Assembly: GCA_003153935.1 (NCBI GenBank)
Contig: PMCA01000004.1
Coordinates: 306-64,305 of the forward strand
DNA length: 64,000 nt
Source of the DNA: Elusimicrobiota bacterium
GTDB taxonomy: Bacteria; CAYTYR01; UBA6262
Direction: 5' to 3'
Program-made: the position numbers and the translations under genes
Notes under the pieces: generated by a model
Seen by the model: only the letters and a program-made list of their open reading frames with translations
Told to the model about the DNA's origin: nothing
The model's database searches: none
Shown here: positions 562 through 59,932 of the stretch, piece by piece
Layout of the letters: the number at the start of each line of letters is the position of its first letter
Position numbering within the stretch: the stretch's first letter is position 1

Positions 562-2382
562 ATGGAGATGGGTATTTCGGTTCAAAATTCTAAAAATGGA
601 ATCATTTGGGCAGATCCCCAGACCGGCTTGATCATAAACTGCAACAAAGCAGCGGAGATACTATTTAAATCAAGCAAGGAAGAAATTATCGGGCGGCATC
701 ATTCCACTATTTATGCGTCACAACAAGCAAGATATTACGCTGATATGTTCATGAAACTCACCCAGAAATATGGGGTGATTGATGAAGAAACAGAAGTGAT
801 TTCAGGATCAGGGACAATAAGTTTTGTCCAGATGACTTCCGCGTTAACTATTATAGAAGGCAAACAAATAATTCAGGAAATATTTCATGATATTGATGAT
901 AGCCGTAAAATAGCAGGCAAACTGCAGGGAAGCGAAGAGCGGGAGAAAGACGAAGAAGAGCTGCGCTTTTCCGAATCACGTTATCGCCGGCTTTTTGAAA
1001 CAGCGCAGGACGGAATATTAATTCTAGACGCAGACACCGGATATATCGTTGATGTTAACCCCTATTTGATCGATATGCTGGGGTATCCACGCGACGAATT
1101 TGTGGGCAAAAAACTGTGGGAGATCGGGCCTATAAAAGATGTTGAGCGAAGCAAGAATGCTTTTCTTGAGCTGCAGGACAAAAAGTATATCCGGTATGAA
1201 AATATGCCCTTGCAAACAAAAAGCGGGGAAAATATAGATGTTGAATTCGTTAGCAATGTATACGGCGTTGATCACCAAAAGGTGATCCAGTGCAATATCC
1301 GCAATATCACCGAACGCAAAAATATGGAAAAAGCTCTTCTGGAGAGCAAGGAACGCTTTAAAGAAATGAGTTTTCATGACTCCCTGACCGGTCTTTATAA
1401 CCGGACCTATTTTACGGAGACCATGGCCCGCTTGGATAGGGATCTCGCCCGTTCAGCTCCGGTGAGTATAATGTCTATCGATATAGACGGGCTGAAACTG
1501 ATAAATGACACATTTGGGCATCAGGCTGGCGATGCCTTATTAAAGGCGGCTGCGGAAATAATACTAAAACCATTTAGACGCATCGATATCGTTGCCCGGT
1601 TAGGCGGAGATGAATTCTGCGTCATCCTGCCGCGTACTGATAATCATGCCGCCCTCGAAAAAAAGAATGAAATAACCAAAATAGTCAATGAGTATAGCAA
1701 TGAAAATCCGGCCATCCACCTGCATATGTCCATCGGTGTGGCTACATCTCAGGATGATGAAAACGAAAATATCTATGGCCTTTATCAACGGGCAGATGAA
1801 GAAATGTATAGGATTAAAAATATCCATACGACGCACCCTAAAGATGAAATTGTCGATATCTTATTGACCGCATTGGCAGAAAGGGACTTTATAAACCAGG
1901 GGCATGCTGAACGGCTGGCAAAAATGGCTGAGACGATCGCGACTAAAATGCATCTACCCGATGATGTGAGAAAAAAATTGATCCTTTTGGCCAAGGTGCA
2001 CGACCTGGGGAAGGTAAGTATCCCGGATAAAATACTGTTCAAGCCCGATTTCTTGACTGATGAAGAAAGAGCCAAGATGAAGGAGCATGCCCAAAAAGGA
2101 TATAACATCGCCAATCGTTCAAAGGAATTGTCCCCTATTGCCGATCTTATTCTCCATCATCATGAATTCTGGGACGGGCAGGGATATCCCGGGGGATTGC
2201 AAGGCGAACAAATACCTCTGGAGGACAGATTATTCTCAATAATGGATGCCTATGATGCCCTGACCAATATGAGGCCTTATCGAAAAGGCATGAGCAAACA
2301 TGAAGCTTTGGCCGAGTTGAAAAATAAATCAGGAACCCAGTTTGAGCCAAAACTTTTAGCTGAATCTATGCGGTATATATAA
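562..2382 (+). CDS. PAS-PAS-GGDEF-HD-GYP c-di-GMP signalling protein
   Basis: This protein of about 606 residues has two N-terminal PAS sensor domains (about 5-110 and 135-260), a GGDEF diguanylate cyclase domain (about 275-430, with intact RLGGDEF) and a C-terminal HD-GYP phosphodiesterase domain (about 445-600). The phosphodiesterase domain has [19 protein letters not shown] and the [13 protein letters not shown] trailer. Both the synthesis and degradation motifs are intact, so it could make or break c-di-GMP according to the PAS input. No membrane segment is evident, so it is probably cytoplasmic. A TTG at 541 is in frame, but ATG 562 is preferred because CAGGAGAG at 547-554 sits at normal spacing before it. 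A small secreted protein gene follows after 20 nt. Confidence 0.9.
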
Positions 2383-53144: not shown

Positions 53145-56100
53145 ATGGGTAATTTCATCGAAAACTTAATTGATTTTTGCGCCAGGAATAAAATGGTCGT
53201 CTTGATACTGGTTGCCATGGCGGTTGTTGGCGGTATTTTCGCCATGAAAAACGTGTCCCTGGACGCTATCCCTGATCTTTCGGATACACAGGTGATCGTT
53301 TTTTCCCGCTGGGACCGGCCGCCCCAGGTGATAGAGGACCAGGTTACCTATCCAATCGTGGCCGCTTTGCTGGGCGCGCCTAATGTTAAAGATGTCCGCG
53401 GGTTCTCCGATTATGGTTTTTCCTACGTTTATGTGATCTTTGAAGACGGCACCGATGTTTACTGGGCCCGTTCCCGGGTGTTGGAATACCTGTCCAAAGT
53501 AATGCCCCAGTTGCCTCAGGGAGTACAAACAGAACTGGGTCCGGACGCTACCGGGGTGGGTTGGGTTTATGAATACGCATTGGTAGACGAGACAGGAAAA
53601 CATTCTTTAGACGAGTTAACCACTTTCCAGAATTGGCACTTGAAGTACGCTTTGCAGTCCGTCAAGGGAGTAGCGGAAGTGGCCAGTGTCGGTGGTTTTA
53701 CCAAACAATACCAGGTAGTTATAGATCCGAACGCGTTACATTCCTATAATATTTCCTTGAACGATGTAATAATGGATATCCAGAGATCCAACCAGGAAGC
53801 AGGCGCTCGCTTGCTGGATATATCCGGCAAAGAATATATGGTTACCATCCGCGGCTACCTGCAATCCCTGCAGGATATACAGGAAATAGTGATCAAAACC
53901 GGGACGAACGGAGTCCCAGTAAAGATTAAGGATGTAGCTACTGTACAATTAGGGCCGGATATCCGCCGGGGCGTGGCCGAGCTTGACGGCAAAGGCGAAG
54001 TAGTTGGCGGCATTGTAGTTATGCGTTATAAGGAAAACGCGCTGAAGGTTATCGAAAGGATAAAACAAAAGCTGGCGGAGATACAATTGCCCGAAGGCGT
54101 TAAGTTGGTGGCCACTTACGATCGCTCGGATCTGATACAGCGGGCGGTAGCGACTTTAAAGAGCAAGCTTTTTGAGGAAATGCTGGTGGTGAGTATAGTC
54201 ATCCTCATATTCCTGGTACATTTCCCTTCAGCCATGATCCCTATTATTACCCTGCCGATAGCCGTTATCATAGCCTTTATCCCGATGTATTTTATGGGGT
54301 TGACTTCCAATGTTATGAGCCTGGGAGGAATTGCCATCGCGGTCGGGGCCATGGTTGACGCGGCGATCGTTCTTGTGGAAAACGCCCATAAGAAGCTGAC
54401 CCTTTGGGACGAAACAGGCCAACAGGGGAATTACCAGGAGGTATTGATCTCCTCAGCTAAAGAAGTGGGCCGGGCTTCTTTTTTCTCCCTATTGGTCATT
54501 GCCGTTGCTTTTTTGCCCATATTTACTTTGGAAGGGATCGAGGGCCGTTTATTTAAACCCTTAGCCTTTACCAAAACTTTCGCCATGTCCTTCGCGGCGA
54601 TCCTCTCGATTACCCTGGCTCCGGCCATTATGCTCCTGGTCATCCGCAAGAATAAAATCATATTTAAACCCCGGTGGTTATCTGCCCTGTTCAACAAGAT
54701 CTTTATCGGTACCATACATTCCGAGGATAAGCACCCGGTCAGCAGGGTGCTGTTCCGGTTGTATGAGCCGGTCGTGCATTACGTACTGAAAAATCCGAAA
54801 AAAGTAATAGGCATCGCGGTTATAGTTTTTCTGGTAACTATGCCGTTTTTCTTCAAGTTGGGGCACGAATTCATGCCGCCATTGAATGAGGGAACGATCT
54901 TATACATGCCAACCACGCCTCCGGGGATATCGGTCACTGAAGCGACCAAGCTGCTGCAGGTACAGGATAAGGTCCTCAAAACCTTTCCGGAAGTTATCAG
55001 CGTATTCGGCAAGGCGGGCCGCGCCAATACTTCCACTGACCCGGCGCCTTTTTCTATGATGGAAACCGTGGTGATGCTGAAGCCGCAGAATGAATGGCGG
55101 GGAGTAGCCAGGTGGTATTCTAAGATAATCCCCGGATTTATGCAAGGTCCGTTCAAGTTGGTCTGGCCGGACAGGATGTCCTGGGATGAGCTGATCAAGG
55201 AAATGGACCAAAAATTGCAGATCCCGGGGCAGGTCAATGCCTGGACCATGCCGATCAAGGCCCGGATAGACATGCTTACCACTGGCGTGCGTACTCCCAT
55301 AGGCATTAAGATCTACGGTGACGATCTGAAAGAGATCGAGACGATCGGCGCGGAGATAGAAGGTCTCCTGAGGCCGCTAAAAGGCACCAGGAGTATTTAC
55401 TCGGAAAGAACCGCCGGAGGCTATTTCGTGAACTTCAACCTGAAGCGTGACGCGATCGCGCGGTACGGGTTGACCATAGCCGACGTGCAAATGACGCTGA
55501 TGTCGGCGATAGGCGGAGAGAATATTACCCAGACTATCGAAGGACGCGAGCGCTTCCCGGTCAGCATCCGCTATCCGCGTGAACTGCGCGATGACGTAGA
55601 GAAGATCAAAAAAACTTATGTTACCAGTGCCGGAGGTATCAGCATCCCCATCGCCGAGCTGGCGGAGATCACTTTACAGACCGGACCGTCAATGATCAGA
55701 GATGAGAACGGCCGTTTGGCCGGTTATGTTTATATTGACGAAGCTGGTCGTGATATCGGCAGTTATGTTGATGAAGCCAAGAGGGTCCTTAAAGACAAGT
55801 TGACGGTGCCGGCCGGTTATTCCCTGGTATTCAGCGGCCAGTATGAATTAATGGAGCGGGTCAAAGAGCGGATGAAAGTAGTATTGCCGCTAACTATATT
55901 TATCATCTTCTTCCTGATCTACATGAATACGCGCAGTTATGTTAAGACTTTCATTATCCTGCTGGCTGTGCCGTTTTCCCTGATCGGCGTGGTTTGGATA
56001 CTGTACCTGCTGGGATACAATATGAGTATCGGCGTCTGGACCGGTATAATCGCTTTACTGGGGGTGGACGCGGAGACCGGTATATTCATGCTCCTATATT

Positions 56101-56402
56101 TGGACCTGTCCTATGATGAAATGAAGAAAAAAGGGTTGCTCAAGACCCTGGATGACCTGAAGGAAGCAGTGATACATGGCGCGGTCAAGAGAGTCAGGCC
56201 GAAGATGATGACCGCTGCGGTATTGTTTGTCGGTTTGCTGCCGATAATGTGGGCGCAGACCCACGAGATCGGCGCTGACGTGATGAAGAGGATCGCCGCG
56301 CCCATGGTCGGCGGGATTTTCACCTCCTTCGCTATGGAGTTGATCGTTTACCCGGCGATATATTTCCTCTGGAAAAAGAAGGAATTGCGGCAGATGAAAT
56401 AA
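53145..56402 (+). CDS. cusA: CusA/CzcA-type heavy-metal RND efflux pump
   Basis: This 1085-residue inner-membrane proton-driven pump has 12 predicted helices in the RND layout, with two large periplasmic loops (about 35-335 and 560-880). The HME-family signature IAVGAMVDAAIVLVENAHK lies in TM4, with the acidic residue used for proton transfer. YPIVAALLGAPNVKDVRG and the GVRTPIGIKIYGDD segment are typical of CusA. The Met-rich HMBD in the adaptor and the cupredoxin gene downstream favour Cu(I)/Ag(I) over Co/Zn/Cd, but specificity is inference. It is slightly longer than E. coli CusA (1047). Confidence 0.93.
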   Translation: MGNFIENLIDFCARNKMVVLILVAMAVVGGIFAMKNVSLDAIPDLSDTQVIVFSRWDRPPQVIEDQVTYPIVAALLGAPNVKDVRGFSDYGFSYVYVIFEDGTDVYWARSRVLEYLSKVMPQLPQGVQTELGPDATGVGWVYEYALVDETGKHSLDELTTFQNWHLKYALQSVKGVAEVASVGGFTKQYQVVIDPNALHSYNISLNDVIMDIQRSNQEAGARLLDISGKEYMVTIRGYLQSLQDIQEIVIKTGTNGVPVKIKDVATVQLGPDIRRGVAELDGKGEVVGGIVVMRYKENALKVIERIKQKLAEIQLPEGVKLVATYDRSDLIQRAVATLKSKLFEEMLVVSIVILIFLVHFPSAMIPIITLPIAVIIAFIPMYFMGLTSNVMSLGGIAIAVGAMVDAAIVLVENAHKKLTLWDETGQQGNYQEVLISSAKEVGRASFFSLLVIAVAFLPIFTLEGIEGRLFKPLAFTKTFAMSFAAILSITLAPAIMLLVIRKNKIIFKPRWLSALFNKIFIGTIHSEDKHPVSRVLFRLYEPVVHYVLKNPKKVIGIAVIVFLVTMPFFFKLGHEFMPPLNEGTILYMPTTPPGISVTEATKLLQVQDKVLKTFPEVISVFGKAGRANTSTDPAPFSMMETVVMLKPQNEWRGVARWYSKIIPGFMQGPFKLVWPDRMSWDELIKEMDQKLQIPGQVNAWTMPIKARIDMLTTGVRTPIGIKIYGDDLKEIETIGAEIEGLLRPLKGTRSIYSERTAGGYFVNFNLKRDAIARYGLTIADVQMTLMSAIGGENITQTIEGRERFPVSIRYPRELRDDVEKIKKTYVTSAGGISIPIAELAEITLQTGPSMIRDENGRLAGYVYIDEAGRDIGSYVDEAKRVLKDKLTVPAGYSLVFSGQYELMERVKERMKVVLPLTIFIIFFLIYMNTRSYVKTFIILLAVPFSLIGVVWILYLLGYNMSIGVWTGIIALLGVDAETGIFMLLYLDLSYDEMKKKGLLKTLDDLKEAVIHGAVKRVRPKMMTAAVLFVGLLPIMWAQTHEIGADVMKRIAAPMVGGIFTSFAMELIVYPAIYFLWKKKELRQMK

Positions 56403-56427
56403 GTCAATAAAAAGGGGAAAGCGCTAA

Positions 56428-56456
56428 TTTACTTGCCGCTCACACAGCTATATAAT
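56428..56456 (+). promoter_or_regulatory. Candidate promoter of the cupredoxin gene
   Basis: TTTACT (56428-56433), 17-bp spacer, perfect TATAAT (56451-56456). It allows expression of the cupredoxin gene apart from the pump operon. Confidence 0.55.
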
Positions 56457-56486
56457 AAAATTACCAAACATTTAAGGAGGTAAGCG

Positions 56487-56885
56487 ATGAAGAAGCTAAT
56501 GGCCCTGTTTTTATCAGTATTTATAGCAACAACAGTAATGGCCGCGACTAAGCCGGCACCTGTTGCCCCGGTTTTATCGGGCACTATGGTAAATGGCGTA
56601 AGAGTGATAACCGTAGCGGCCAAAAAATATGAGTTCATTCCTAACCCCATAGTGGTAAATGTAGGGGAGAAGGTTTTGCTGAAGATCACCGCTACTGATG
56701 TCGATCATGGTATTGGCATAAAAGAGTTCAAGATCGAACAGAAATTACCCAAAGGTTCGGAGCAAGCGATAGGGTTTACCCCTGATAAAACAGGTACTTT
56801 CACTATCAACTGCACCGAGTGGTGCGGGCTGGGCCATATGGCGATGAAAGGCAAATTTATCGTACTTCCGGTCATAAAGAAGTAA
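56487..56885 (+). CDS. Secreted cupredoxin with a CuA-type binding site
   Basis: This 132-residue protein has a signal peptide (about 1-20) followed by one cupredoxin domain. It has the full ligand set of a dinuclear CuA site as in cytochrome oxidase subunit II and nitrous oxide reductase: His74 (DVDHGIG), then Cys109-x3-Cys113-x3-His117-x2-Met120 (CTEWCGLGHMAM). No transmembrane helices or oxidase subunits accompany it. It follows the CusCBA-like operon, so periplasmic copper binding or delivery is likely, with electron transfer as an alternative. AAGGAGG precedes the ATG, and a hairpin terminator follows. Confidence 0.88.
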   Translation: MKKLMALFLSVFIATTVMAATKPAPVAPVLSGTMVNGVRVITVAAKKYEFIPNPIVVNVGEKVLLKITATDVDHGIGIKEFKIEQKLPKGSEQAIGFTPDKTGTFTINCTEWCGLGHMAMKGKFIVLPVIKK

Positions 56886-56936: not shown

Positions 56937-56968
56937 TTGACAATATTAGTCATATATAGTATAATATT
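56937..56968 (+). promoter_or_regulatory. Perfect consensus promoter with embedded palindrome
   Basis: TTGACA (56937-56942), 17-bp spacer and TATAAT (56960-56965) are both perfect. An inverted repeat AATATTA (56942-56948) / TAATATT (56962-56968) spans the spacer and -10, a likely autoregulatory operator for the downstream IscR-like protein. The start codon at 56972 is 7 nt from the -10, so the mRNA is probably leaderless. Confidence 0.85.
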
Positions 56969-56971
56969 TTT

Positions 56972-57379
56972 ATGCTAAAGATATCTACAAGGTGCCGCTA
57001 TGGCATGATGGCCATGGCGGAGCTGGCAAAAAATTATAAAGGTGAGCCGCTGTCGGCCGGGGAAATGGTTCGCCGGCACCGTATTCCCAGGTTCTACCTG
57101 GAGCAGTTACTGGTAAAGCTGAGGCGGCACGGCTTGATCGAAAGCATCCGCGGTCCGCAGGGTGGCTTCAACTTGAAAAAGGATCCGGCCAAAATAACGA
57201 TCGGGGAGATAATAAGCTCACTGGAAGGGCCACTGGACCTAGTATCCTGTGCCGGCCTGAACAAAGGTAAATCCTGCTGGAAGATCAATAGCTGCTTGAC
57301 CAGATCGATATGGCTAGACCTAAATGAAGCGGTAAATAAAGTTTTGCAGAAGAAAACTCTGGCTGACCTGATAAAATAG
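56972..57379 (+). CDS. IscR-like Rrf2 regulator (Fe-S operon)
   Basis: This 135-residue Rrf2 protein has MLKISTRCRYGMMAMAEL, then IPRFYLEQLLVKLRRHGLIES and the RGPQGGFNL wing. Cys93, Cys102 and Cys108 lie close to the three [2Fe-2S] ligands of E. coli IscR (92, 98 and 104), so it probably senses cluster supply and controls the nifS-nfu-nadA genes that follow. The start is fixed by the family N-terminus, yet it lies only 7 nt after a perfect -10, leaving no room for a ribosome-binding site. nifS starts 13 nt downstream. Confidence 0.88.
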   Translation: MLKISTRCRYGMMAMAELAKNYKGEPLSAGEMVRRHRIPRFYLEQLLVKLRRHGLIESIRGPQGGFNLKKDPAKITIGEIISSLEGPLDLVSCAGLNKGKSCWKINSCLTRSIWLDLNEAVNKVLQKKTLADLIK

Positions 57380-57392
57380 AAACGAGGAAATC

Positions 57393-58568
57393 ATGGACAT
57401 CAAGAAAAGATATTTTGACTATGCAGCTACTACGCCGATGCATCCGGAAGTAACTAAGGCTATGCAGCCGTTTTTGGAAGAGAAATTCGGCAACCCATCC
57501 AGCATCCATTCTTTCGGCCAAGAAGCCAAAGCGGCAATAACGGAAGCTCGGGATGTGATCGCCGCAACCATCAAAGCTAAGAGCGAAGAGATCGTCTTTA
57601 CCAGCGGAGGCACGGAAGCGGACAATTTCGTCCTGGCCGGGGTGCTGGAAGCCATGGCGAAAAAAGGCAACCATATCATAACTGATACCGTAGAACATCA
57701 CGCTATCCTGGAAACCTGCCGGTTCATGGAAAAACATCGCGGCGCCAAGGTTACTTATATACCGGTAGATAAAACCGGTCTGGTAGACCCGCAGGACATA
57801 AAAAAAGCTATTACCAAAGAGACCGTGCTTATTTCCGTAATGCATGCCAATAATGAGATCGGCACTATAGAACCTATAGCGGAGATCGGTAAAATAGCGC
57901 GGGAGGCGGGCGTGTATTTCCATACCGACGCCGTGCAAACCTTCGGCAGCCTGGATATCGACGTGGAAAAACTGAATGTGGACTTTCTCTCCGCCAGCGC
58001 CCATAAACTTTATGGCCCGAAAGGTATCGGCCTGCTGTATGTGCGTAAGGGAGCGCGTATTTTGCCGCTTTTACATGGCGGTGAGCAGGAGAGAAGGCGC
58101 CGGGCCTCAACGGAGAACGTTCCGGGTATAGTCGGTTTCAGCAAAGCGGTGCAGTTAGCGGAGCAGGAGCGCCAGGAACGCAACGAGCACCTGATAAAAA
58201 TGCGCGATAAGTTGATCAAAGGGATACTGGACAGCATCGAGGAGACGCAACTGAACGGTCATCCGCAGTTACGACTGCCTAATAACGTAAATGTGACCCC
58301 TAAATACGTAGAAGGGGAATCGATGCTCCTTAATCTGGACCTGGAAGGCATCGCCGCTTCAACCGGCTCCGCCTGTTCCAGCGGTTCGCTGGAGCCGTCG
58401 CATGTCTTAAAGGCGATAGGCATCAACCCAGAGATAGCCCATTCCAGTCTGCGGTTCAGCCTGGGCCGGCTGAATACGGATGAGGATGTAGATTATCTGC
58501 TGGAAGTTTTACCGCGGATAGTGAAAACTTTGCGGGAAATGTCCCCGTTGTATAAGAAGAAAAAATAG
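57393..58568 (+). CDS. nifS: Cysteine desulfurase (NifS/IscS type)
   Basis: This 391-residue PLP enzyme releases sulfur from cysteine as a persulfide. It has YFDYAATTPMHPEV at the start, EHHAILE with the PLP-stacking His (about 103), the PLP Lys in SASAHKLYGPKGIG (about 205) and the catalytic Cys in STGSACSSGSLEPSHVL (about 327). The long active-site loop makes it class I (IscS/NifS), not SufS. It should serve Fe-S assembly (IscU at 43.0 kb, the Nfu-like protein next door) and MnmA thiolation. ACGAGGA precedes the ATG. Confidence 0.95.
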   Translation: MDIKKRYFDYAATTPMHPEVTKAMQPFLEEKFGNPSSIHSFGQEAKAAITEARDVIAATIKAKSEEIVFTSGGTEADNFVLAGVLEAMAKKGNHIITDTVEHHAILETCRFMEKHRGAKVTYIPVDKTGLVDPQDIKKAITKETVLISVMHANNEIGTIEPIAEIGKIAREAGVYFHTDAVQTFGSLDIDVEKLNVDFLSASAHKLYGPKGIGLLYVRKGARILPLLHGGEQERRRRASTENVPGIVGFSKAVQLAEQERQERNEHLIKMRDKLIKGILDSIEETQLNGHPQLRLPNNVNVTPKYVEGESMLLNLDLEGIAASTGSACSSGSLEPSHVLKAIGINPEIAHSSLRFSLGRLNTDEDVDYLLEVLPRIVKTLREMSPLYKKKK

Positions 58569-58592: not shown

Positions 58593-58820
58593 ATGAAAGA
58601 AAAAGTGAAAAAAAGCCTGGAAAAGATAGCCAAGATGCTGGGCTCAGATGGCGGTAGCGTGGAGCTGGTAGAAATTGACGAGGCCAAAGGCTTAGTTAAA
58701 GTAAGATTACTGGGTGCCTGCCAGGGCTGTCCCATGAGCGCCATGACCTTGAAGAATGGTATCGAAAGGATACTGAAGGAAGATGTTCCGGAAGTTAAGA
58801 CAGTCGAGTCCGTAGATTAA
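58593..58820 (+). CDS. Nfu-type Fe-S carrier (NifU C-terminal domain)
   Basis: This 75-residue protein consists only of the NifU C-terminal/Nfu domain. It has a start helix, SDGGSVELVEIDEAKGLVKV, then the cluster-binding CQGCP (Cys pair near 47 and 50) and MTLKNGIERILKEDVPEV. Two copies bridge one [4Fe-4S] cluster in known members. It probably passes clusters to client proteins such as NadA, encoded just downstream. AAGGAGG precedes the ATG. Confidence 0.93.
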   Translation: MKEKVKKSLEKIAKMLGSDGGSVELVEIDEAKGLVKVRLLGACQGCPMSAMTLKNGIERILKEDVPEVKTVESVD

Positions 58821-58845: not shown

Positions 58846-58856
58846 AGGAGGTGATC
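58846..58856 (+). promoter_or_regulatory. Exceptionally strong Shine-Dalgarno sequence
   Basis: AGGAGGTGATC is complementary to the canonical 16S rRNA 3' end (GATCACCTCCT) over 11 nt, and its core is 8 nt from the ATG at 58860. It is the longest such match noticed in the window, and it marks the 23-codon ORF as translated. Confidence 0.85.
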
Positions 58857-58859
58857 GCT

Positions 58860-58931
58860 ATGACAGCCAGAGTTTCCAAAAAGTATTTCTTGCGCCCGAC
58901 CGCTCACTGCTGCGGCGGGAAATGTAGTTAG
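58860..58931 (+). CDS. 23-residue Cys-rich peptide, possible Cys attenuator
   Basis: A 23-codon ORF (MTARVSKKYF at the start, HCCGGKCS at the end) lies between the Nfu gene and nadA. Three of the last seven residues are Cys, two of them adjacent (TGC TGC). It has an 11-nt Shine-Dalgarno match and an ideal spacing. The coding bases can themselves fold (CCCG-CCGC at 58895-58903 with GCGGCGGG at 58912-58919), and a strong hairpin follows 26 nt after the stop. This is the layout of a leader peptide where stalling at Cys codons changes downstream folding. A functional Cys-rich or modified peptide is the alternative. No peptide-modifying enzyme is nearby. Confidence 0.6.
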   Translation: MTARVSKKYFLRPTAHCCGGKCS

Positions 58932-58956
58932 CCCCGAGCAGGGCGTTAAAAGGCTT

Positions 58957-58985
58957 ACCCGCTCCGACTTAACATCGGAGCGGGT
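58957..58985 (+). promoter_or_regulatory. 11-bp hairpin between Cys-rich ORF and nadA
   Basis: ACCCGCTCCGA (58957-58967) pairs perfectly with TCGGAGCGGGT (58975-58985) around a 7-nt loop. The following CTCTATTCT is only moderately T-rich, so it is a weak terminator or mRNA-processing/attenuation element. Its left arm could instead pair in part with GCGGG in the upstream ORF. Confidence 0.6.
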
Positions 58986-59008: not shown

Positions 59009-59932
59009 ATGCCCATACCGCGCTTAAACAAAGAAATAAGGGAGATTGCCGCCAGAAAAGGGGCGGTCATATTGGCTCATAACTATCAATTGCCGGAAGT
59101 ACAGGACGTGGCTGATTTTGTCGGCGATTCGCTGGAGCTGAGCATCAAGGCCGGGGAAACTAAGGCGGAGATCATTATCTTTTGCGGCGTGAACTTCATG
59201 GCGGAAACCGCGGCGATAATTTCGCCGCAGAAAAAGGTGCTGATACCGGATTATACCGCCGGTTGCCCGATGGCCAACATGATCAACGCCGAGAATGTCC
59301 GGGAACTGAAAAGACAACATCCCGGGGCCAAGGTGGTATGTTATGTTAATTCGACCGCGGCGGTTAAAGCCGAAAGCGATATTTGCTGCACCAGCGCCAA
59401 CGCGGTGAAAGTGGTTAATTCGCTGAAGGACACGGAAGAGATTATATTCATTCCCGATAAAAACCTGGGTAGTTACGTGCAGAGCAAAGTACCTAAGAAG
59501 AAGTTCATTATCTGGGAAGGTTTTTGCCCGACCCACGCCCGTATATTAAAGGACGATATCTACCGCGCCAAAGATAAACATTCGCAAGCCAAGGTCATGG
59601 TACATCCGGAGTGCCGGCCGGAAGTCATAGCGCTGGCCGACCTGGTCGCTTCCACCAGCGGCATGAGCAAGTTCGCCCGGGAAACGGAAGCTAAAGAGAT
59701 CATCATTGGCACGGAAGTAGGGATGTTATACCGCCTGCAAAAAGAAAATCCGGATAAAAATTTCTATCCGGCCTCCTCCCAAGCTATCTGCCCTAATATG
59801 AAATTGACTACGCTTGATAAAATATTCTGGTCACTTCAGGACCTGGTTTACCCGGTAGTGGTGGAAGAACCCATCCGCAGCCGGGCTAAAATGGCCATTG
59901 AACGAATGATCGCCCTCTCCAAACAGGATTGA
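59009..59932 (+). CDS. nadA: Quinolinate synthase
   Basis: This 307-residue [4Fe-4S] enzyme condenses iminoaspartate with dihydroxyacetone phosphate in NAD synthesis. It has AHNYQLPEVQDVADFVGDSL near the start and the three cluster Cys in TAGCPMAN (about 86), EGFCPTH (about 172) and AICPNMK (about 260), plus PEC, STSGM and the GTEVGML segment. The length matches the short NadA class. No nadB or nadC is in the window. Its place after nifS and nfu fits its oxygen-sensitive cluster. AAGGGG precedes the ATG, and the hairpin/Cys-rich ORF sits just upstream. Confidence 0.96.
   Translation: MPIPRLNKEIREIAARKGAVILAHNYQLPEVQDVADFVGDSLELSIKAGETKAEIIIFCGVNFMAETAAIISPQKKVLIPDYTAGCPMANMINAENVRELKRQHPGAKVVCYVNSTAAVKAESDICCTSANAVKVVNSLKDTEEIIFIPDKNLGSYVQSKVPKKKFIIWEGFCPTHARILKDDIYRAKDKHSQAKVMVHPECRPEVIALADLVASTSGMSKFARETEAKEIIIGTEVGMLYRLQKENPDKNFYPASSQAICPNMKLTTLDKIFWSLQDLVYPVVVEEPIRSRAKMAIERMIALSKQD

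Follow-up and report, generated by a model that had tools for sequence, protein, structure and literature searches.

The closest described counterparts of the locus presented here are ribosome arrest peptides and regulatory upstream ORFs of the TnaC, SecM and ErmCL type, polycysteine leader peptides, through which cysteine-responsive attenuation operates in actinobacteria, and the NAD+ riboswitch (nadA motif). A further counterpart, on the RNA side, is the coremin motif, GUCCGAAGACGUUAAACUAC, an exoribonuclease-resistant RNA of BNYVV RNA3 and its relatives in plant viruses (PMC10520033, PMC5869530), for which stalling of Xrn1 and, in vitro, a block to ribosome scanning are described (PMC10520033). 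The coremin loop follows the consensus YGAD or YGNNAD, and one working octaloop is described, with no octaloop consensus (PMC10520033).

The DNA analyzed, hereafter the window, is a stretch of 64,000 nucleotides from an Elusimicrobiota bacterium. A perfect sigma-70-like promoter (TTGACA-17-TATAAT, 56937-56965, plus strand), identified by consensus match only, probably drives an operon whose genes all share that orientation: an Rrf2-family transcription regulator (56972-57379), the cysteine desulfurase gene nifS (57393-58568), nfu, encoding a NifU C-terminal-like Fe-S scaffold (58593-58820), a micro-ORF (58860-58931) and the quinolinate synthase gene nadA (59009-59932). The sequence-only reading of this region had reported a 23-codon ORF with an 11-nt perfect anti-Shine-Dalgarno match within a nifS-nfu-nadA operon, and both the ORF and its setting were confirmed, with the Rrf2 regulator as the first gene. 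The ORF runs from an ATG at 58860 to a TAG at 58929-58931 and encodes the predicted peptide MTARVSKKYFLRPTAHCCGGKCS, while its Shine-Dalgarno site, AGGAGGTGATC (58846-58856, plus strand), matches the usual anti-Shine-Dalgarno complement over 11 nt. The same reading called this site far stronger than its neighbors, which holds against the weak site of nadA but not against nfu, which also has a strong one (AAAGGAGG). A perfect 11-bp hairpin, without a long U tract, is indeed present between the ORF and nadA (58957-58985, plus strand). Just 5' of the operon, at 53145-56885, lie genes for an AcrB/CusA-like RND efflux pump and a cupredoxin-domain protein, which parallel the metal-efflux neighbors of the micropeptide family elsewhere.

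The order nifS-nfu-miniORF-nadA, which the sequence-only reading had proposed to look for in relatives, was found in all three genomes of the same family (G001-G003). Their peptides, MTARVSKKYFLRPVAHCCGGKCS, MRARVSRKYFLRPVAHCCGGKRT and MRARVSRKYFLRPVAHCCGGKRN, matched that of the window with E values of about 1e-10 to 1e-12 (tblastn), and the four share RVS[KR]KYFLRPxAHCCGGK, with the core KYFLRPxAHCCGGK. Purely synonymous differences affect 2-9 codons per genome pair. The more distant pairs, counted over 24 codons of which one lies 5' of the ATG, differ by 8-9 synonymous and 5-6 residue-changing codons, the latter mostly near the peptide ends. Thus the core is kept while codons vary, as had been anticipated for a peptide, but the C-terminus is not conserved throughout, the third Cys being lost in G001 and G003. 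Judged by this pattern, the 23-codon ORF is a genuine, conserved gene.

A profile built from the window peptide and the three relatives was searched against a domain-wide sample, where it found distant micro-ORFs that were confirmed by a second profile and degenerate DNA patterns. A pattern scan of a species-level genome collection returned at least 114 stretches, and the set of loci used below comprises 114 micro-ORFs, kept from the matches listed plus four phage-type contigs. The pattern matches L080, L081, L144, L148 and L155 were left out as chance or lacking a start, as were the weak profile matches L043, L046 and L050, which are overlapping or antisense to larger ORFs. The peptide was the sole search criterion, and the RNA structure described below played no part in selection. 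With a general profile, the peptide was found in 16 of 386 sampled genomes.

The 114 micro-ORFs listed have 17-31 codons, nearly all with an ATG and a Shine-Dalgarno site, and the median exact match of that site is 8 nt as opposed to 5 nt for neighboring genes. The family core reads [KR][YFW]xLRPV[AT]HCxxG[C], its aligned last codon encoding a second Cys in most other members and Lys in the window. Most members read HC-K-E-G-C, and tandem Cys is rare beyond the window lineage. The N-terminal part varies in length from 5 to 11 residues. Nearly all possible codons are in use at the L, R, P and V positions. Since the motif was part of the scan pattern, the invariance of LRPV[AT]HC is partly selected; profile matches outside the pattern read LRTVAHC, LRAVAHC, LRAVARC and IRPVSHC. 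Among the matches listed, the family is present in about ten phyla and in some phages. Omnitrophota make up the majority of these loci, and the others come from Bacillota (Desulfofundulus, Desulfotruncus, Moorella, Carboxydocella, Pelotomaculum), Aminicenantes, Auribacterota, Actinomycetota, Brocadia, Scalindua, Nitrospirae, Deltaproteobacteria, Polyangiaceae, Acidobacteriota and Elusimicrobia. One Aminicenantes MAG (L125, L133, L136, L156) carries at least five copies of a branch reading HCRSGC, without the RNA structure, and two of these copies adjoin related proteins of 470-670 aa.

Neither the window peptide nor its relatives had a significant match in Pfam, NCBIfam or PHROGs, and identity with a known family was rejected after PDB sequences and Rfam also gave none; a literature search on LRPVAHC or YMLRPV peptides returned nothing relevant. 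On these grounds, the predicted family of about 20 residues is widespread and undescribed, which bears out, by its amino-acid conservation, free synonymous sites and spread over about ten phyla, the earlier suggestion of a new micropeptide. A conserved gene of about 20 codons has apparently been overlooked until now, as genes this short are passed over by gene callers and the family is missing from profile libraries.

When the loci were aligned from the first Cys codon (Cys1), a second conserved block surfaced. It corresponds to a compact 26-nt H-type pseudoknot, GUC-CY-GGGC-AN-GAC-RNUAAACU-GCCC (consensus GTCCYGGGCANGACGTTAAACTGCCC in cells and GTCCTGAGCATGACGTTAAACTGCTC in phages), which is covered by no Rfam model. 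The window copy (GCC CC GAGC AG GGC GTTAAAAG GCTT, 58931-58956, plus strand), assigned by pattern and pairing, lies between the ORF and the 11-bp hairpin and shares one base with the TAG stop; it is the most widely conserved feature of the locus and had been missed by the sequence-only reading. Its stem 1 pairs 58931-58933 with 58942-58944 (GCC/GGC) and its stem 2 pairs 58936-58939 with 58953-58956 (GAGC/GCUU), both being themselves compensatory. The pattern occurs once in the window genome. Among the 114 loci listed, which had been chosen by peptide alone, 84 have a pseudoknot whose first base lies exactly 23 nt beyond that of Cys1, one more has it at +38 and L060 at +22; the strictest pairing test was passed by 77 of 113 loci, and the pattern arises by chance in 29 per 400000 random 26-mers. 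In 30 representative sequences, 97% of stem cells were paired, as compared with 33-51% when the partner was slid, and both-side changes were found in 16 cells versus 3.2 in shuffles. Covariation of the predicted stems thus shows the pseudoknot to be conserved. In an actinobacterial MAG (L096, about 1335-1387, minus strand) a single micro-ORF is followed by two tandem pseudoknots, and one cellular copy (L318, G389:C38:33586-33610) lies away from the micropeptide locus of the same genome and may belong to a prophage.

Peptide conservation reaches as far as the codon whose start lies 12 nt beyond the first base of Cys1 (in the window, the end of CCGGK, 58908-58922, plus strand, from Cys1 at 58908 to Lys at 58920-58922), that is, 8 nt before the pseudoknot. 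This 8-nt spacer is nearly random in sequence and almost free of indels. In-frame stops fall at +15, +21 or, within the pseudoknot, at +33 or +39, and the +23 spacing is constant whatever the stop codon. An apparent C-terminal SRA/SWARR motif was rejected as a peptide feature because it arises where the ORF reads the pseudoknot in frame. Frameshifting into a longer protein was likewise discarded: in the -1 frame about half of the pseudoknot loci run straight into a stop, and where the +1 frame is open, this is often due solely to the sequence of the pseudoknot itself. The pseudoknot is missing in about a quarter of the loci listed. In some lineages a hairpin or nothing clear takes its place in the module: in G001-G003 and the divergent L340 a simple hairpin begins at the same +23, and clear structure is often lacking from the HCRSGC branch (Aminicenantes, Brocadia, Scalindua, Acidobacteriota).

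Enrichment of the module was seen in redox, NO, metal and Fe-S operons, and in many uncultured phyla the micropeptide serves as a marker of those with redox and Fe-S functions. The Rrf2 cluster was found at 46 of the 114 loci listed, being the next gene in 34; these neighbor counts are not independent, because many loci are related Omnitrophota. Other leading neighbors are 4Fe-4S proteins, Hcp (prismane), superoxide reductase, flavodiiron protein (FprA) and rubrerythrins, accompanied by metal P-type ATPases, ArsP/ArsB-like permeases, glutaredoxin and 8-oxoguanine glycosylase. A same-strand gene follows within 300 nt at 84 of the 101 loci with both neighbors, and at the other 17 no same-strand gene start lies within that distance downstream. 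Besides leader positions, the module takes up places within operons and at their ends, and the micropeptide gene of L104 lies between two opposite-strand genes. A fluoride riboswitch lies near the Desulfofundulus micropeptide locus (L092, 6125-6188).

These findings led us to favor, tentatively and with somewhat less than even confidence, a two-part module in which a strongly initiated micropeptide gene and a compact pseudoknot at a fixed distance would jointly pause the ribosome. The nascent chain ending in LRPVAHCxxGC would halt the ribosome on the codon for the second Cys, or for Lys in the window, where the ribosome's leading edge would abut the pseudoknot; the HCxxxC part of the chain might sense redox, metal or thiol state, and the pause might then set the stability or translation of the surrounding operon mRNA. 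The position of the putative pause was deduced because the spacing and the conservation boundary fit it. The model is also supported by the following observations: (i) the peptide is under selection, as seen from the near-complete codon usage at L, R, P and V and from the synonymous changes in four genomes; (ii) the stems covary and keep to +23 in loci collected by the peptide, the spacer resists indels while the N-terminus varies in length, and the plain hairpins of G001-G003 and L340 begin at the same point; (iii) peptide conservation stops 8 nt short of the structure, and phage copies located 6-8 nt past stop codons would have a similar clearance from the ribosome; (iv) the related coremin blocks scanning ribosomes in vitro (PMC10520033); and (v) Rrf2, Hcp, superoxide reductase, FprA, rubrerythrin and metal efflux form the genomic context. 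Against it stand the quarter of loci without a pseudoknot, including the often structureless HCRSGC branch, the 17 loci with no same-strand gene start close downstream, and the mid-operon or operon-terminal positions; furthermore, shared descent or horizontal transfer could account for part of the fixed spacing. Like arrest peptides, the candidate module combines a very short ORF, strong initiation, an RNA structure just downstream and a conserved C-terminal stretch that ends at one fixed codon. Unlike them, it precedes varying genes rather than one specific controlled gene, is often mid-operon or last, and has a pseudoknot instead of alternative hairpins.

Almost as likely as ribosome pausing, which is slightly ahead, is that the micropeptide acts in trans, either as a thiol or metal ligand (His, Cys-x3-Cys) or as a partner of Fe-S or stress proteins, the pseudoknot being only the 3' end of the message. 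This possibility, to which we give a little over one-third of our confidence, would account for the retention of the peptide in lineages without the pseudoknot, for operon-end and stand-alone genes such as L104, for the several copies in one Aminicenantes MAG and the presence in phages, and for the redox, metal and Fe-S neighbors. However, it leaves unexplained the near indel-free 23-nt spacing and the fact that most ORFs run into the pseudoknot, and the product is short, at 17-31 aa, of which about 13 form the conserved stretch.

Rather improbable, in our estimate, is that the pseudoknot serves as an mRNA stabilizer, a coremin-like exonuclease-resistant RNA shielding neighbor genes, to which the strong Shine-Dalgarno site would add ribosome protection. 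The likeness to coremin is close: the family consensus has a GUC/GAC 5' hairpin stem, Y-G near the loop start and the spacer GUUAAACU (GCC/GGC with GTTAAAA in the window), an arrangement nearly identical to the plant-virus motif, and it also lies 3' of coding regions. The differences are that the family loop has 8 nt, CYGRGCAN, and departs from YGAD/YGNNAD; that the GRGC in it pairs with the GCYC immediately following the spacer, which makes a separate second hairpin unnecessary; and that the structure is found in bacterial and phage DNA genomes at a fixed distance from a micro-ORF. The 11-bp hairpin lies directly 3' of the window copy, and at most other loci a second hairpin is not consistent, the pairing involving the first loop instead. 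Without the micropeptide, the pseudoknot was found in at least 120 phage-contig stretches (L196-L315), with up to seven copies in one piece and often 6-8 nt past a stop codon. In Staphylococcus phage DW2 (KJ140076, 19323-19348), thermophilic phage D6E (GU568037, 3760-3785) and Lactobacillus phage phiEF-1.1 (MF041990, 22279-22307) it sits between portal/minor-head and scaffold/capsid genes, which speaks for this reading; for DW2 and phiEF-1.1 the order of genes served for part of the assignment, since the adjacent genes carry other annotations or are labeled hypothetical. Stabilization leaves the conservation of the peptide unexplained, and neither RNase J (TIGR00649) nor an RMMBL protein scored over the cut-off in the genomes of the window and the three family relatives; these would thus lack any known bacterial 5'-3' exonuclease that the RNA could resist, and a block of this kind is unlikely in them.

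Classical attenuation, in which Cys-tRNA starvation would stall the ribosome, alter the downstream hairpin and thereby control nadA, was the mechanism put forward by the sequence-only reading, and we now consider it very unlikely. Adjacent Cys codons and a hairpin before nadA are present in the window, but the family has no conserved run of Cys, with the tandem rare elsewhere and the third Cys missing from two of the three relatives, and LRPV and H are as conserved as Cys. The relatives have no conserved alternative hairpins either: a different strong hairpin occupies their ORF-nadA gap, and the one predicted over the Cys codons in the window changes its pairing among them; neither hairpin keeps its sequence or its pairing. 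The locus resembles polycysteine leaders in having a short ORF with Cys codons near sulfur and Fe-S genes, and differs from them in the lack of a Cys tract and of a shared hairpin switch. Nor does nadA emerge as the target, since among the loci listed it adjoins the micropeptide in this family of genomes only; an RNA element upstream of nadA recalls the NAD+ riboswitch, which was rejected as no Rfam covariance model match was found in the window and nadA is merely an incidental neighbor of the module. That the ORF, small as it is, arose by chance has next to no probability, being refuted by the tblastn relatives, by conservation of the peptide while codons change synonymously, and by the distant profile matches.

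Returning to ribosome pausing, a broader proposal, which we regard as possible though doubtful, is that the module represents a new regulator class, in which a Cys/His-sensing nascent micropeptide and a coremin-like pseudoknot would pause the ribosome across some ten phyla, its RNA half shared with phages and forming a prokaryotic counterpart of the plant-virus element. It could thus constitute a new translation-linked control in stress and iron-sulfur operons. The attached pseudoknot is new to Rfam, common in phages including those of Staphylococcus, and similar to exonuclease-resistant RNA of plant viruses; a literature search on phage or RNase J pseudoknots of this kind returned nothing relevant. 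Cultured hosts such as Moorella, Desulfofundulus and Carboxydocella make it directly testable whether such RNAs serve prokaryotes and their viruses against nucleases or ribosomes. In one phage contig (L198, 6223-9596), two pseudoknot copies are interspersed with hammerhead ribozymes of type II, two of which exceed the Rfam cut-off while three are weaker.
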